NCBI GenBank assembly: GCA_002813895.1
Contig: CP024912.1
Span: forward strand, 2,046,001 to 2,110,000
DNA: 64,000 nt
Source: Cyanobacterium sp. HL-69
Lineage (GTDB): Bacteria > Cyanobacteriota > Cyanobacteriia > Cyanobacteriales > Cyanobacteriaceae
Reading direction: 5' to 3'
Shown: one piece after another, positions 5,950 through 50,163 of the stretch
Layout of the letters: every line of letters begins with the position of its first letter
How positions within the stretch are numbered: position 1 is the stretch's first letter
Position numbers and translations under genes: made by a program
Notes under the pieces: model-generated
What the model saw: the letters and a program-made list of their open reading frames with translations, nothing else
Told to the model about the DNA's origin: nothing
Database searches by the model: none

Positions 5950-5958
5950 GGAGTTGTG

Positions 5959-6213
5959 ATGAAATTACCAAAACTTAGTCAGGGGGATATTGATAGGATT
6001 GTAGAAATGGCTTGGGAGGATAGAACTACCTTTGATGCCATTGAGTTACAGTTTGGTTTGTCGGAAAAGCAGGTGATTGCTTTGATGAGAAAGGAAATGA
6101 AAAGTTCTAGTTTTAAGATGTGGCGCAAACGGGTTTCTGGTAGGAAAACAAAGCATCTCAAGAAAAGAGATTTTCTGGTAACTCGGTTTAAGTCTGATAA
6201 TCAAAAAACTTAG
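5959..6213 (+). CDS. TIGR03643/DUF2805-type small protein
   Basis: An 84-residue basic protein. The N-terminal half (I-V-E-M-A-W-E-D-R-T-T-F-D-A-I then a helix-turn-helix-like segment) matches the conserved family named TIGR03643, whose function is unknown. AAGGAG at 5948-5953 sits five bases before ATG 5959; a GTG at 5956 is too close to it. The RBS overlaps the stop of the peroxiredoxin gene, so the two are probably one transcript. The C-terminal tail is rich in Lys and Arg. A nucleic-acid-binding role is possible but not shown. Confidence 0.75.
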   Translation: MKLPKLSQGDIDRIVEMAWEDRTTFDAIELQFGLSEKQVIALMRKEMKSSSFKMWRKRVSGRKTKHLKKRDFLVTRFKSDNQKT

Positions 6214-6229: not shown

Positions 6230-6265
6230 GGCGTGATCCCGCAGGGATCTGCTCCGCAGTACGCC
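6230..6265. repeat. Cloverleaf palindromic repeat element, copy 1
   Basis: Outer arms GGCGT/ACGCC enclose two small hairpins: ATCCC-gca-GGGAT and CTGC-tcc-GCAG. The whole 36-base unit would fold as a three-way junction. A relative lies in reverse orientation at 44679-44710 inside the LCP gene. The element sits between the TIGR03643-type gene and ribE and could act on mRNA ends, but no run of T follows. Confidence 0.75.
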
Positions 6266-6344
6266 AAGGGGTAAGATTTGCCCTTCTTTTTTTGTGATAC
6301 AGTTAGGGAAAATAACCAGCTATTTCGCATAAACTAATTTAAGA

Positions 6345-7034
6345 GTGTTTACAGGATTAATACAAGGTACAGGGAAAGTTAAATCTTTAGGTAATGATTT
6401 ATATGCGATCGCCATTGACCGAAAAAACAACCAAAAAATTACCCACGACTTAGAATTAGGAGACAGTGTCGCCGTGGACGGAGTTTGTCTTACCGTCGAA
6501 AAAATTACTAAAGATGGCTTTGTTGCCACCGCCTCCCCCGAAACCCTCCAAAGGACAACCCTAGCCAGAAGTACCCAAAATCAAAGCCCCGTAAACCTAG
6601 AAACCTCCCTGAGAGTAGGTAGTAAAATCGGAGGACATTTTGTTAGTGGTCATGTGGACGGTATTGGCTGCCTAACAGAATCAAAGCAAACCCAACAAGC
6701 TTGGGAAATGACCTTTTCTAGCCCCCCCACCCTTAAAGTTGAGTGGGAAAAATATCTCGCCCCCTATATCGTGTCAAAAGCTAGTATTGCGGTTAACGGT
6801 ATCAGCCTTACCATTGCCGAGTGTGATAGCGATGGTAGTTGCTTTAAAGTGGCAGTAATACCCGTTACCTATGCTGATACAAACCTCGCTCAATTAAAAA
6901 TAGGTGATTGGGTAAACCTAGAAAGCGACATTCTCGGTAAATATGTTGATAGACTAATTAGTCATCGTCTTGGAAAACAACCCATACAAGCAGACATCAC
7001 CCTAGATTTTTTAGCCCAGCATGGATATGGATAA
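6345..7034 (+). CDS. ribE: Riboflavin synthase (alpha chain)
   Basis: Dismutates two 6,7-dimethyl-8-ribityllumazine molecules to riboflavin and the pyrimidinedione, the last step of vitamin B2 synthesis. The protein has the two lumazine-binding repeats: M-F-T-G-L-I-Q-G at the start and a second barrel from about residue 100. G-H-F-V-S-G-H-V-D-G near 97 is the usual substrate-binding motif. The start is GTG at 6345; no upstream ATG fits, and the M-F-T-G start is near invariant in the family. It converges tail-to-tail with cobQ, the two stop codons touching. Confidence 0.95.
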   Translation: MFTGLIQGTGKVKSLGNDLYAIAIDRKNNQKITHDLELGDSVAVDGVCLTVEKITKDGFVATASPETLQRTTLARSTQNQSPVNLETSLRVGSKIGGHFVSGHVDGIGCLTESKQTQQAWEMTFSSPPTLKVEWEKYLAPYIVSKASIAVNGISLTIAECDSDGSCFKVAVIPVTYADTNLAQLKIGDWVNLESDILGKYVDRLISHRLGKQPIQADITLDFLAQHGYG

Positions 7035-43411: not shown

Positions 43412-43570
43412 GAAATTACTACTCATTTTGTGGTCTAATTGCCTATTATTTAAGAGGTTATCTTTTACTATGTGATTAATTTTTATTGATCATATTCGTT
43501 AACCAAAATAAAAATACATCGTTGGGTCCTTTGGCTAAGTTATTTTTTAAATTTTTTGTGGGGAGTTTTA

Positions 43571-45019
43571 ATGTCTGTAAGTAAAGTAAATTATCGTCCC
43601 AAGAAAGGGGGACCTAAAAAAGTACAACCCCCCAAGAAGGGGGCTAGGGTGAATTGGCTTTTAATGGGATTTGGTTTAAGTGCGATCGCCTCTTTGTCCA
43701 CCGCCATAGGTGCTTTACTCGCCCTTTCTTTTACTCAAACTCCCCTCAATCAAGTTCGCCTAAGTCCGGACGAAGAAGCAGTTTTTAATCAAGAAGAAAC
43801 TTTAAGTTACAGTAGCTTGAATGTTCCTGAACTGCGCAGACCCATTAATATCCTTGTATTAGGCATTAAATCTTTAAGTACCGACATCCCCGACTATCCA
43901 GAAACCAATTTAGGTTATCATCCCCTTGTCAACTCCTTCCAAGGGCGATCGGATAGCATGATGTTACTAAGACTAGATCCCCGAAAAAATGAGGTGGTTG
44001 TGTTGTCCATCCCCCGTGACACCAGAACCCGTGTGGAGGGCGTTGGCATAACCAAAATCAACGATGCCAACGCCTATGGAGGAGCATCCCTCGCCGCTGA
44101 ATCCGTTAGTAATCTTCTTAACGGTGTGGAAATTGACCGTTATGTGCGCATCAATGTCCAAGGAGTTGAAAAACTCATCGATGCCCTTGGGGGGGTAGAT
44201 TTCTATGTTCCCAAAGACATGAAATATACGGATCATAGTCAACGCCTTTATATTGACTTAGAAGAAGGACAACAACAGTTAGATGGTCAAAAAGCATTAC
44301 AACTTTTACGATTCCGTTACGATGCCCTTGGGGATGTGGGTAGGGTACAACGACAACAAGCTCTGATCAGAGCCTTAACAGAACAGGCTTTAAGTCCTAA
44401 AACAGTCTTACGTATTCCTGAAATTTTAGGTATTGTTCGCTCCCATATCGACACTAACCTAGGTACAAATGAATTAATTGCCATGGCAGCTTTCATGGGG
44501 CAGAAAAGCAGATCCGATTTTCAGATGGTGATGTTGCCAGGAGATTTTAACCAGCCAGAAGAAGGACAGCCCAGTTATTGGTTACCTAGTCAAAGGGGTA
44601 TTACAAGGGTTGCTCAGGACATTTTTGGAGTTCAACCTGATTATTTTTATGCCAATGACAATAGTGATAGTATAGAAGCGCGCCGCGAAGCGGATCCCTA
44701 CGGGATCGCCCCTAGCAGTGTGAGAGTTGCCATACAAACCCGTGATGGTGACAGAGAAATTGCCCAAAGTGTTGCCAATCAGCTAATAGAATCAGGTTAC
44801 AACCGAGTTTTCATCAGCACTATTCCCTACAATGAGCCTACTACCAAAACCAGGATTGTCGCCCAAGGGGGAGATCCTTCCATGGCGGCAAGAGTAAGAG
44901 TAGCATTGGGTTTAGGGGAAGTATTAGTAGAAAGCACAGGGATTTTAGGTACCGATGTCACCATTCAGGTAGGTAGAGACTGGACTATGGACAATGAGCC
45001 ATCGACCATTGATAATTAA
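43571..45019 (+). CDS. LytR-CpsA-Psr (LCP) family cell-wall polymer ligase
   Basis: A 482-residue membrane-anchored enzyme. A basic cytoplasmic head (P-K-K-G-G-P-K-K) precedes one membrane helix (about 28-52). The LCP domain (about 90-300) has G-R-S-D-S-M-M-L-L-R near 122, V-L-S-I-P-R-D-T-R near 145 and L-R-F-R-Y-D near 252, the Asp/Arg residues that hold Mg-polyprenyl phosphate. A LytR_C domain ends the protein. LCP enzymes move polymers from lipid carriers to peptidoglycan. Between the two domains lies a stretch encoded by the palindromic element at 44679-44710. ATG 43571 has GGGGAG ten bases upstream. Confidence 0.9.
   Translation: MSVSKVNYRPKKGGPKKVQPPKKGARVNWLLMGFGLSAIASLSTAIGALLALSFTQTPLNQVRLSPDEEAVFNQEETLSYSSLNVPELRRPINILVLGIKSLSTDIPDYPETNLGYHPLVNSFQGRSDSMMLLRLDPRKNEVVVLSIPRDTRTRVEGVGITKINDANAYGGASLAAESVSNLLNGVEIDRYVRINVQGVEKLIDALGGVDFYVPKDMKYTDHSQRLYIDLEEGQQQLDGQKALQLLRFRYDALGDVGRVQRQQALIRALTEQALSPKTVLRIPEILGIVRSHIDTNLGTNELIAMAAFMGQKSRSDFQMVMLPGDFNQPEEGQPSYWLPSQRGITRVAQDIFGVQPDYFYANDNSDSIEARREADPYGIAPSSVRVAIQTRDGDREIAQSVANQLIESGYNRVFISTIPYNEPTTKTRIVAQGGDPSMAARVRVALGLGEVLVESTGILGTDVTIQVGRDWTMDNEPSTIDN
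44679..44710. repeat. Cloverleaf palindromic repeat element, copy 2, inside the LCP reading frame
   Basis: CGCG-CCGC-gaa-GCGG-ATCCC-tac-GGGAT-CGCC. It is the reverse-orientation relative of 6230-6265. The two inner hairpins are kept, and the second has changed on both arms (CTGC/GCAG to GCGG/CCGC read on the other strand). It keeps the LCP frame open, encoding roughly A-R-R-E-A-D-P-Y-G-I-A in the linker before the LytR_C domain. Confidence 0.75.
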
Positions 45020-49304: not shown

Positions 49305-49778
49305 TTAACGGAATTTTATCTGACTCAATATGTAGCCAAGACGAGATGGTTTATTTATGTATAAATATCCTAGGAGAGTTTCAAACCCTGTGGCTTGTTG
49401 ATATATTCCGGGGGCAAGTTTGCGGGGAGATTTTTTGACGGAGTTTCTTCCTCTTTTTACCCATATTCTTTCTTCTTCATCTAATAATGGGTAAATACTT
49501 TGTAGGTGTTTTGCTTGACTTTCGGCTCTTACTTGGTGGACTACTTTGTGGTGATGGTCTGCTATTTTTAGGCAGGGTACTAGGTAATGAGTCCTAACGT
49601 GGAGTTCATAGATAGCGTCACCGATGTAGGCAAGGGATATGGGGGAAATTTGTTTGAGAGATGATGGAGGTATTGTTGCAAGAGGGTTTTCTTCTCTCAC
49701 ATTGACTACCTCATGGTCATCATTTTCTCTCGAGGGGGACTTAGGTGGCGGTCGTAAATCAATGTCGTTCTGGGTCAC
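49305..49778 (-). CDS. mrnC: Mini-ribonuclease III
   Basis: RNase III-like domain without a dsRNA-binding domain, which in Bacillus matures 23S rRNA ends. A poorly conserved 40-residue lead is followed by S-L-A-Y-I-G-D-A-I-Y-E-L-H-V-R near 50, containing the catalytic acidic residues, then a K-R-G-R-N-S segment near 108 and T-G-F-E-T-L-L-G-Y-L near 132. Length 157 is slightly longer than average because of the N-terminal extension. It ends next to the glnB terminator and lies just after the STAS gene on the same strand (22 bases), which may form one transcript. Confidence 0.88.
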   Translation of the reverse strand: MTQNDIDLRPPPKSPSRENDDHEVVNVREENPLATIPPSSLKQISPISLAYIGDAIYELHVRTHYLVPCLKIADHHHKVVHQVRAESQAKHLQSIYPLLDEEERIWVKRGRNSVKKSPRKLAPGIYQQATGFETLLGYLYINKPSRLGYILSQIKFR

Positions 49779-49800
49779 AATAACACCGTTATTTTTTTGA

Positions 49801-50163
49801 TTATGATATGTCCGCTAAGGCTTCATCGAGAGAATTTCTTAGATTAAGGAATTTTTCTAATCGCACCATCTTAACGGTTTGAGTAACCCTCGGATTAGTA
49901 ACAATTTGCATTTTTCCTTTGATGGGTTCGATCGCCTTTACGATGCGAACTAATGCTCCTAAACCAGAACTATCAATAAAGTCGATTTGAGATAAATCGA
50001 GAATAATTTGACTAGCTCCTTCTTTTACATAACTCAGGATAACTTTCTGAAATGTGGGCTCAGAAAAAGCATCTAACTGACCTAGTAGGTGAAAAATTTG
50101 GCAATTTTTTTTGACTTCACGAGTCCCTCTAAGACTCACTGTCAAGTTTAGTTGTTCGGAAAT
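49801..50163 (-). CDS. STAS-domain anti-sigma factor antagonist-like protein
   Basis: A roughly 120-residue SpoIIAA-like STAS protein. The conserved phosphorylatable serine lies in D-F-I-D-S-S-G-L-G-A-L-V, and C-Q-I-F-H-L-L-G-Q-L-D-A-F opens the domain. Such proteins switch partner proteins through Ser phosphorylation. A strong AAGGAGGT at 50168-50175 points to an ATT codon at 50161-50163 five bases downstream, since no ATG, GTG or TTG lies at proper spacing; a TTG at 50193 would read through the Shine-Dalgarno, and a later TTG is at 50145. I use the ATT start. Placed before mrnC. Confidence 0.8.
   Translation of the reverse strand: MSEQLNLTVSLRGTREVKKNCQIFHLLGQLDAFSEPTFQKVILSYVKEGASQIILDLSQIDFIDSSGLGALVRIVKAIEPIKGKMQIVTNPRVTQTVKMVRLEKFLNLRNSLDEALADIS

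Follow-up and report, generated by a model that had tools for sequence, protein, structure and literature searches.

The 64,000-nucleotide (nt) stretch of Cyanobacterium sp. HL-69 analysed here (contig CP024912.1, positions 2,046,001 to 2,110,000; hereafter the window) carries a short palindromic repeat in two places. Copy 1 lies in the 36-mer GGCGTGATCCCGCAGGGATCTGCTCCGCAGTACGCC on the plus strand (6230–6265), between the stop codon of a TIGR03643/DUF2805 gene and a terminator-like hairpin, with the riboflavin synthase gene ribE after them. Copy 2 lies on the minus strand (44678–44709) within an LCP-family gene, which it lengthens by eight codons. The original prediction described a cloverleaf repeat of an outer stem and two inner hairpins, with base changes between the two copies that keep the pairing, and suggested that this structure perhaps serves mobility by a REP-associated transposase or RNA stability. 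Our analysis gives a different unit. The repeat is a 24-nt insert that splits HIP1 (GCGATCGC), an eight-base palindrome frequent in cyanobacteria, and not a 36-nt cloverleaf. It very probably represents a small dispersed repeat (SDR) of the SDR5-like kind, a non-autonomous 24-nt mobile element inserted at one exact point of HIP1.

The insert and its target

Both copies were located with the differences that had been noticed in them: hairpin 2 reads CTGC/GCAG in copy 1 and CCGC/GCGG in copy 2, ATCCC/GGGAT of hairpin 1 is constant, and the loop of hairpin 1 varies (GCA in copy 1, GTA in copy 2). Shuffled sequence gives a mean of 0.00 matches to GGCGTGATCCCGCAGGGATCTGCTCCGCAGTACGCC when up to 3 mismatches are allowed. 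For a view of the borders, 95 distinct copies (the strict pattern counts 136 over 60 genomes) were chosen by their match to the two hairpins alone, with the flanks ignored. Conserved columns end at GCG on the left and at CGC on the right, and taking out the 24 nt between GCGAT and CGC restores the exact GCGATCGC in 52 of the 95 copies and a site with at most one mismatch in 87. The element pattern is GCGAT[CCC nnn GGGATC YGC nnn GCRG YR]CGC, in which the bracketed part is the insert. Because this removal rebuilds HIP1 in most copies, the outer stem consists for the most part of the split palindromic target, together with flanks, and lies outside the repeat proper. The two inner hairpins of the proposed cloverleaf hold, and its outer stem does not belong to the repeat. 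Beyond the target, just one more flanking pair is above chance (35 of 95 copies versus 24.2 in shuffles, standard deviation 4.1), as would be expected from the longer target form GGCGATCGCC.

Other ways of delimiting the unit were tried. When GGCGT was demanded on the outer side of hairpin 1, a single copy matched, because this outer arm is target and flank, not repeat. Two separate insertions of 11 and 13 nt were also considered and dropped, since half-elements are rare compared with full ones: in 1.10 Mb of DNA, hairpin 1 alone was found in HIP1 at 2 palindromic sites (4 strand matches), hairpin 2 alone at 1, and the full element at 107. An Rfam search of the window at the gathering score matched tRNA alone and assigned the repeat to no RNA family, and a 131-base BLAST query around copy 1 returned only itself from its own genome, the unit being too short and diverged for such a search.

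Filled and empty sites in relatives

Insertions were read by comparison of the window's genome (G000, 3.30 Mb) with its relatives G003 and G004; a further genome, G002, is of the same genus. A further 16 copies, from G000, G003 and G004, were checked for orthologous sites, and 19 pairs covering 12 copies could be aligned: 16 filled/empty pairs (nine sites), two with the insert in both genomes and one that does not cover the element. The gap is exactly 24 nt in 14 of the 16 filled/empty alignments, and 8 of the 16 have a perfect HIP1 at the empty position. On Picosynechococcus plasmids, PCC 7117 has the filled site GGGCGAT[24 nt]CGCC and PCC 8807 the empty site GGGCGATCGCC, with a gap of 24. 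In the clean filled/empty cases the target is neither duplicated nor lost. The mobility that had been suspected from two copies is thus seen in orthologous sites. The insert of copy 2 is missing from the orthologous LCP gene in 14 of 14 relatives searched, and its site in G004 reads GGCGATCGCC.

One site of the window is empty where G003 and G004 have a common insert (window 49599–49911), although G004, which bears the insert, is the nearer relative by LCP and ribE proteins. This suggests either loss of the 24-nt insert or recombination.

Covariation between copies and stem decay at sites filled in two species

Eleven genomes were searched with hairpin 1 left fully free in the pattern, which gave 194 matches, and the 150 listed ones were analysed (71 of 94 from G056, 0 of 21 from G029, and all from the other genomes). 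Pairs were counted directly on these copies in place of a covariance model. At pair 18/26, where the pattern left Y and R free, C-G occurs in 108 copies and T-A in 42 with no other combination, so that 150 are paired compared with 119.8 in shuffles (standard deviation 2.5). Pair 7/13 is the most varied (C-G 78, T-A 46, G-C 13, G-G 9, others 4), with 138 paired when G-T is counted, versus 92.4 in shuffles (standard deviation 3.5), and pair 8/12 is paired in 148 of 150 versus 132.1 (standard deviation 1.3). Pair 5/15 barely varies, and the remaining positions are near-invariant or fixed by the pattern. Among the 95 hairpin-chosen copies, the Y/R pair of hairpin 2 is T-A in 48 and C-G in 47, again with no others. 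Covariation among copies is real, and the changes between the window copies are compensating ones. Copies with unpaired arms, which the original prediction had named as evidence against it, do occur: 42 of the 150 listed copies are not paired at all five positions of hairpin 1. Hairpin 1 is complete in the other 108, and at most one of its pairs is missing in 147.

The two window copies represent two subfamilies that coexist in several genomes; the listed copies show this for G000, G007, G010 and G056. The double change between them was most likely inherited rather than made at these sites.

A different behavior is seen after insertion. At six sites the insert is shared by two species: four of these sites are in G007 and G010 (with 18 of 19 and 19 of 19 of their loose-pattern copies compared), and two in G000/G004 and G003/G004. 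Between the orthologous copies 12 stem pairs differ: 10 have lost pairing in one copy or in both, 1 is still paired by a one-sided change and 1 is compensated. Within this small sample, hairpins drift after insertion. Because copies covary while the stems at shared sites break, the structure appears to be needed for spreading and not for host function at each site. This also suggests that it is mainly well-paired elements that go on to spread.

Loops, and the folded form as DNA or RNA

Of the 150 listed copies, 123 have a GNA or TNC sequence in loop 1 and 135 have one in loop 2; TNC read on the opposite strand is GNA. Loops of the GNA type that close G-C stems are described in PMC4686876 as forming extraordinarily stable mini-hairpin DNA (GCGAAGC, melting temperature 78 °C). 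The plus strand of copy 2 contains exactly GCGAAGC. In addition, few G-T pairs occur: 1 of 150 at 7/13 and 8/12, 0 of 150 at 18/26 though the pattern allowed T-G there, and 3, 1 and 2 of 150 at 4/16, 5/15 and 6/14, respectively. GNA/TNC loops and scarce G-T pairs would favour a DNA form of the folded element.

These observations bear on the possible but rather unlikely route in which an RNA copy is reverse-transcribed or reverse-spliced into HIP1 and the stems are RNA stems. The stems are able to pair as RNA, and Elhai and co-workers reportedly favoured RNA intermediates for SDR elements in 2008. However, the loops mostly follow a stability rule of the DNA type, and an RNA route is not what the rarity of G-T pairs points to.

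Hairpin 2 has loops of either orientation, in G056 and G037 too (GTA 47 and TAC 7, TTC 40 and GAA 4, TCC 23 and GGA 10). Such loops are expected of hairpin inversion, and template switching within hairpins (quasi-palindrome correction) could make compensating changes in a structure that is not selected at all. We consider this unlikely, since 10 of the 12 changed pairs at shared sites are broken, and correction is therefore infrequent after insertion.

Distribution and HIP1 content

The strict two-hairpin pattern matches twice in the window's genome, both times within the window, and a looser 32-mer pattern (up to 3 mismatches) matches 7 times there, with 0 matches for the reversed control. 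Over 60 genomes, the strict pattern was found in 14 (the window's own included), with 136 copies and up to 49 per genome; the reversed control gave 0 in all 60. The exact 32-mer pattern occurs in 4 of 386 genomes of the phylum, all of the window's order. In a genome collection 91 stretches matched, and among the 80 matches listed all records are titled cyanobacteria; named records with the exact 32-mer pattern include Prochloron, Paraprochloron, ESFC-1, Xenococcaceae, Crocosphaera and Phormidium. At E 0.1, no match was found among 50,697 phage records, and 2 plasmid records matched.

None of the 14 genomes that carry strict copies has fewer than 518 HIP1 sites. Within the family, HIP1 count tracks copy number (rho 0.80, p 0.0003; 15 genomes, kinship uncorrected). 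The congener G002 has 59 HIP1 sites, versus about 2,000 in G000, G003 and G004, and carries no copy of the element even at 3 mismatches. G002 is a possible case of HIP1 loss.

Relation to Y1 transposases

The RAYT-type transposase that had been suggested as the mover is not supported by these data. Y1_Tnp (PF01797) matched in 51 of the 60 genomes, 14 of 14 with strict copies and 37 of 46 without, and its count is not clearly related to copy number (Spearman 0.24, p 0.06 over 60 genomes; rho 0.41, p 0.13 in the family only; Mann-Whitney p 0.11). In G007, where the loose pattern finds 19 copies, Y1_Tnp matched once and weakly (E 8.8e-5). Two Y1 matches are present in the window's genome and one was read: a protein of 133 amino acids (C1:187899-188237, L272) with YVKNQKQHH near its end, which by this motif is of a non-REP kind. 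The motif resembles that of the low-copy non-REP subclass 1.2 of PMC6006769, described there as generally without IS200 end structures. The REP tags GTAG and CGTC were not found at the element ends in the 95 copies, where the flank columns are GCG and CGC.

Movement of a REP element by RAYT or another Y1 transposase is hence a quite improbable explanation. A short, palindromic unit, a target that is not duplicated, and at least one Y1_Tnp match in every strict-copy genome would all agree with it, but most genomes without strict copies have such matches too, a copy-rich genome has one weak match, and the conserved flanks are HIP1 halves rather than tags. REP/REPIN sequences with RAYT are also short, palindromic, dispersed and non-autonomous. 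The present element differs from them in its HIP1 target, in the missing GTAG/CGTC tag and clear Y1 link, and in its frequent position within genes, whereas REP is extragenic.

Genomic context

Features at and around the window copies are collected in Table 1. For copies with long flanks, 35 of 85 lie inside open reading frames (ORFs) of at least 150 codons, compared with 171 of 254 HIP1 sites of the same loci (p 3e-5); insertion into genes is tolerated yet depleted. Orientation relative to the host ORF is unbiased (17 and 18). All six frames are open in 47 of 90 distinct 32-mers versus 34% of shuffles, which is not striking. At a given site the element has no demonstrated host role, and inside genes it adds eight codons.

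Table 1. Positions of the repeat copies, their parts and neighbouring features in the window
Feature	Position	Strand	Remark
TIGR03643 / DUF2805 gene, upstream of copy 1	5956..6213	+	
Left target part of copy 1, GTGAT (HIP1 GCGAT, one mismatch)	6233..6237	+	
Hairpin 1 of copy 1, GATCCC-GCA-GGGATC; the leading GAT are target bases	6235..6249	+	
Copy 1, 24-nt insert CCCGCAGGGATCTGCTCCGCAGTA, two hairpins	6238..6261	+	G004 orthologous spacer: 4 nt (CAAT) at the same point, 20-nt gap
Hairpin 2 of copy 1, CTGC-TCC-GCAG; the leading C doubles as the final base of hairpin 1 as drawn	6249..6259	+	
Right target part of copy 1, CGC	6262..6264	+	
Terminator-like hairpin and T run adjoining copy 1	6267..6293	+	Kept in G004, which is without the insert
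Riboflavin synthase gene (ribE), downstream of copy 1	6345..7034	+	
LCP-family gene (LytR_cpsA_psr + LytR_C) holding copy 2 in frame, directly before LytR_C	43556..45019	+	
Copy 2, 24-nt insert CCCGTAGGGATCCGCTTCGCGGCG	44681..44704	-	GCGAT at 44709-44705, CGC at 44680-44678; G004: empty HIP1
Empty orthologous HIP1-like site	49599..49911	+	G003 and G004 have a common insert here (L168)

RNA stability at the site, the other role that had been suggested, is not borne out: the terminator-like hairpin beside copy 1 is kept where the insert is absent, and stems at shared sites mostly decay uncompensated. That the repeat is a host regulatory or mRNA-stabilising structure selected at its sites, to which the place of copy 1 between stop codon and terminator-like hairpin would lend itself, is most improbable given that close relatives lack the element at orthologous sites, that stems decay after insertion and that so many copies sit within long ORFs.

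Other short repeats are present in the same DNA. A dispersed palindrome, AAGGGG(TTTAAA)CCCCTT with variants, occurs at five places in the 64 kb (window 10871, 15105, 16746, 19336 and 36094). The element flanks at L150 (G004, C8) and L157 (G003, C1) hold two further short dispersed repeats of about 45 and about 60 nt, with many matches in G004 or G003.

Discussion

The window repeat is very probably one of the small dispersed repeats of cyanobacteria. SDR families, according to what Elhai and co-workers are said to have reported in 2008, are 21–27 nt long and have hairpins with compensatory mutations; the 24 nt of the present element falls in this range and its compensated hairpins match this trait. 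SDR5 inserts between nucleotides 3 and 4 of HIP1 (Elhai 2015, PMC4390886). The point found here, between GCGAT and CGC, is the same one, being between GCG and ATCGC on the opposite strand. Family identity with SDR5 is probable, judged by this insertion point.

In the SDR5-like reading, the element enters HIP1 between GCGAT and CGC without duplication or loss of any target base; the insertion point and length, the presence or absence between close relatives, several subfamilies with compensated stems and, in a small sample, the decay of stems after insertion are seen directly. Its two small hairpins may be the signal for the mobilising machinery, hence the pairing would be kept in lineages that spread. 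Less surely, the folded form might be single-stranded DNA, joined to HIP1 at a nick or a replication fork by a trans-acting enzyme. We put forward, tentatively and as doubtful, a more specific proposal: the 24-nt element, among the smallest mobile DNAs, would be copied as folded single-stranded DNA with its GNA-loop mini-hairpins as recognition signal, and its joining to HIP1 would be the work of enzymes nicking or methylating this site, not of a transposase. Structure would then be selected for transmission only, and the element would repeatedly become an eight-codon protein insert.

Several observations weigh against the SDR5-like reading as a whole or against its parts. Neither a transposase, an intermediate nor movement in the laboratory has been seen. 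Copy number is not predicted by HIP1 count once all 60 genomes are taken together (rho -0.24, p 0.06), and 41 of the 46 genomes without a strict copy have at least 500 HIP1 sites. Because most copy-free genomes are also HIP1-rich, HIP1 is not enough; the data fit HIP1 as needed for the element and not as sufficient. For the insertions, 6 of the 16 further copies have no separate filled/empty alignment: 4 had no spanning orthologous match (L130, L134, L138, L139), 1 alignment missed the element and 1 was a second view of a shared site. Two of the 16 alignments deviate, with gaps of 23 and 22 nt, and in another (L128 versus L178) the 24-nt gap was placed as two pieces. Moreover, other insertions are cleaner than the two in the window. 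The LCP gap of copy 2 against G004 aligns as 30 nt, with the neighbouring linker also differing, and the gap of copy 1 against G004 is 20 nt, where G004 reads GGCGATCAATCGCC with CAAT at the same point. This GCGAT-CAAT-CGC of G004 (L049), orthologous to window 6233–6264, is possibly an insert remnant or possibly chance.

The structural evidence has its own counterweights. Pairs 4/16 and 6/14 of hairpin 1 are not above shuffles in the 150 listed copies, position 4 being a target base. The shuffles used for all pair counts ignore relatedness, the copies form few subfamilies, and independent events were not counted. In addition, single copies fold no better than shuffles: the 40-mer, folded as RNA, has z = -1.81, and the two 32-mers, on both strands and as DNA or RNA, have z values from -1.23 to +0.16. 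The evidence for structure comes from comparison between copies, not from the folding of a single copy.

Among other known systems, Rickettsia palindromic elements are likewise palindromic inserts found in frame in unrelated genes, with a length of about 150 bp (PMC10969869), compared with 24 nt in HIP1-like sites here. For the SDR5-like element, both sides of the insertion can be read base by base, in close relatives as well as in two cultured strains (Picosynechococcus PCC 7117 and PCC 8807), which makes target, length and active source sequences directly testable. Moreover, setting covariation among copies against decay at shared sites offers a simple way to separate structure that is required for spread from structure that is required by the host.
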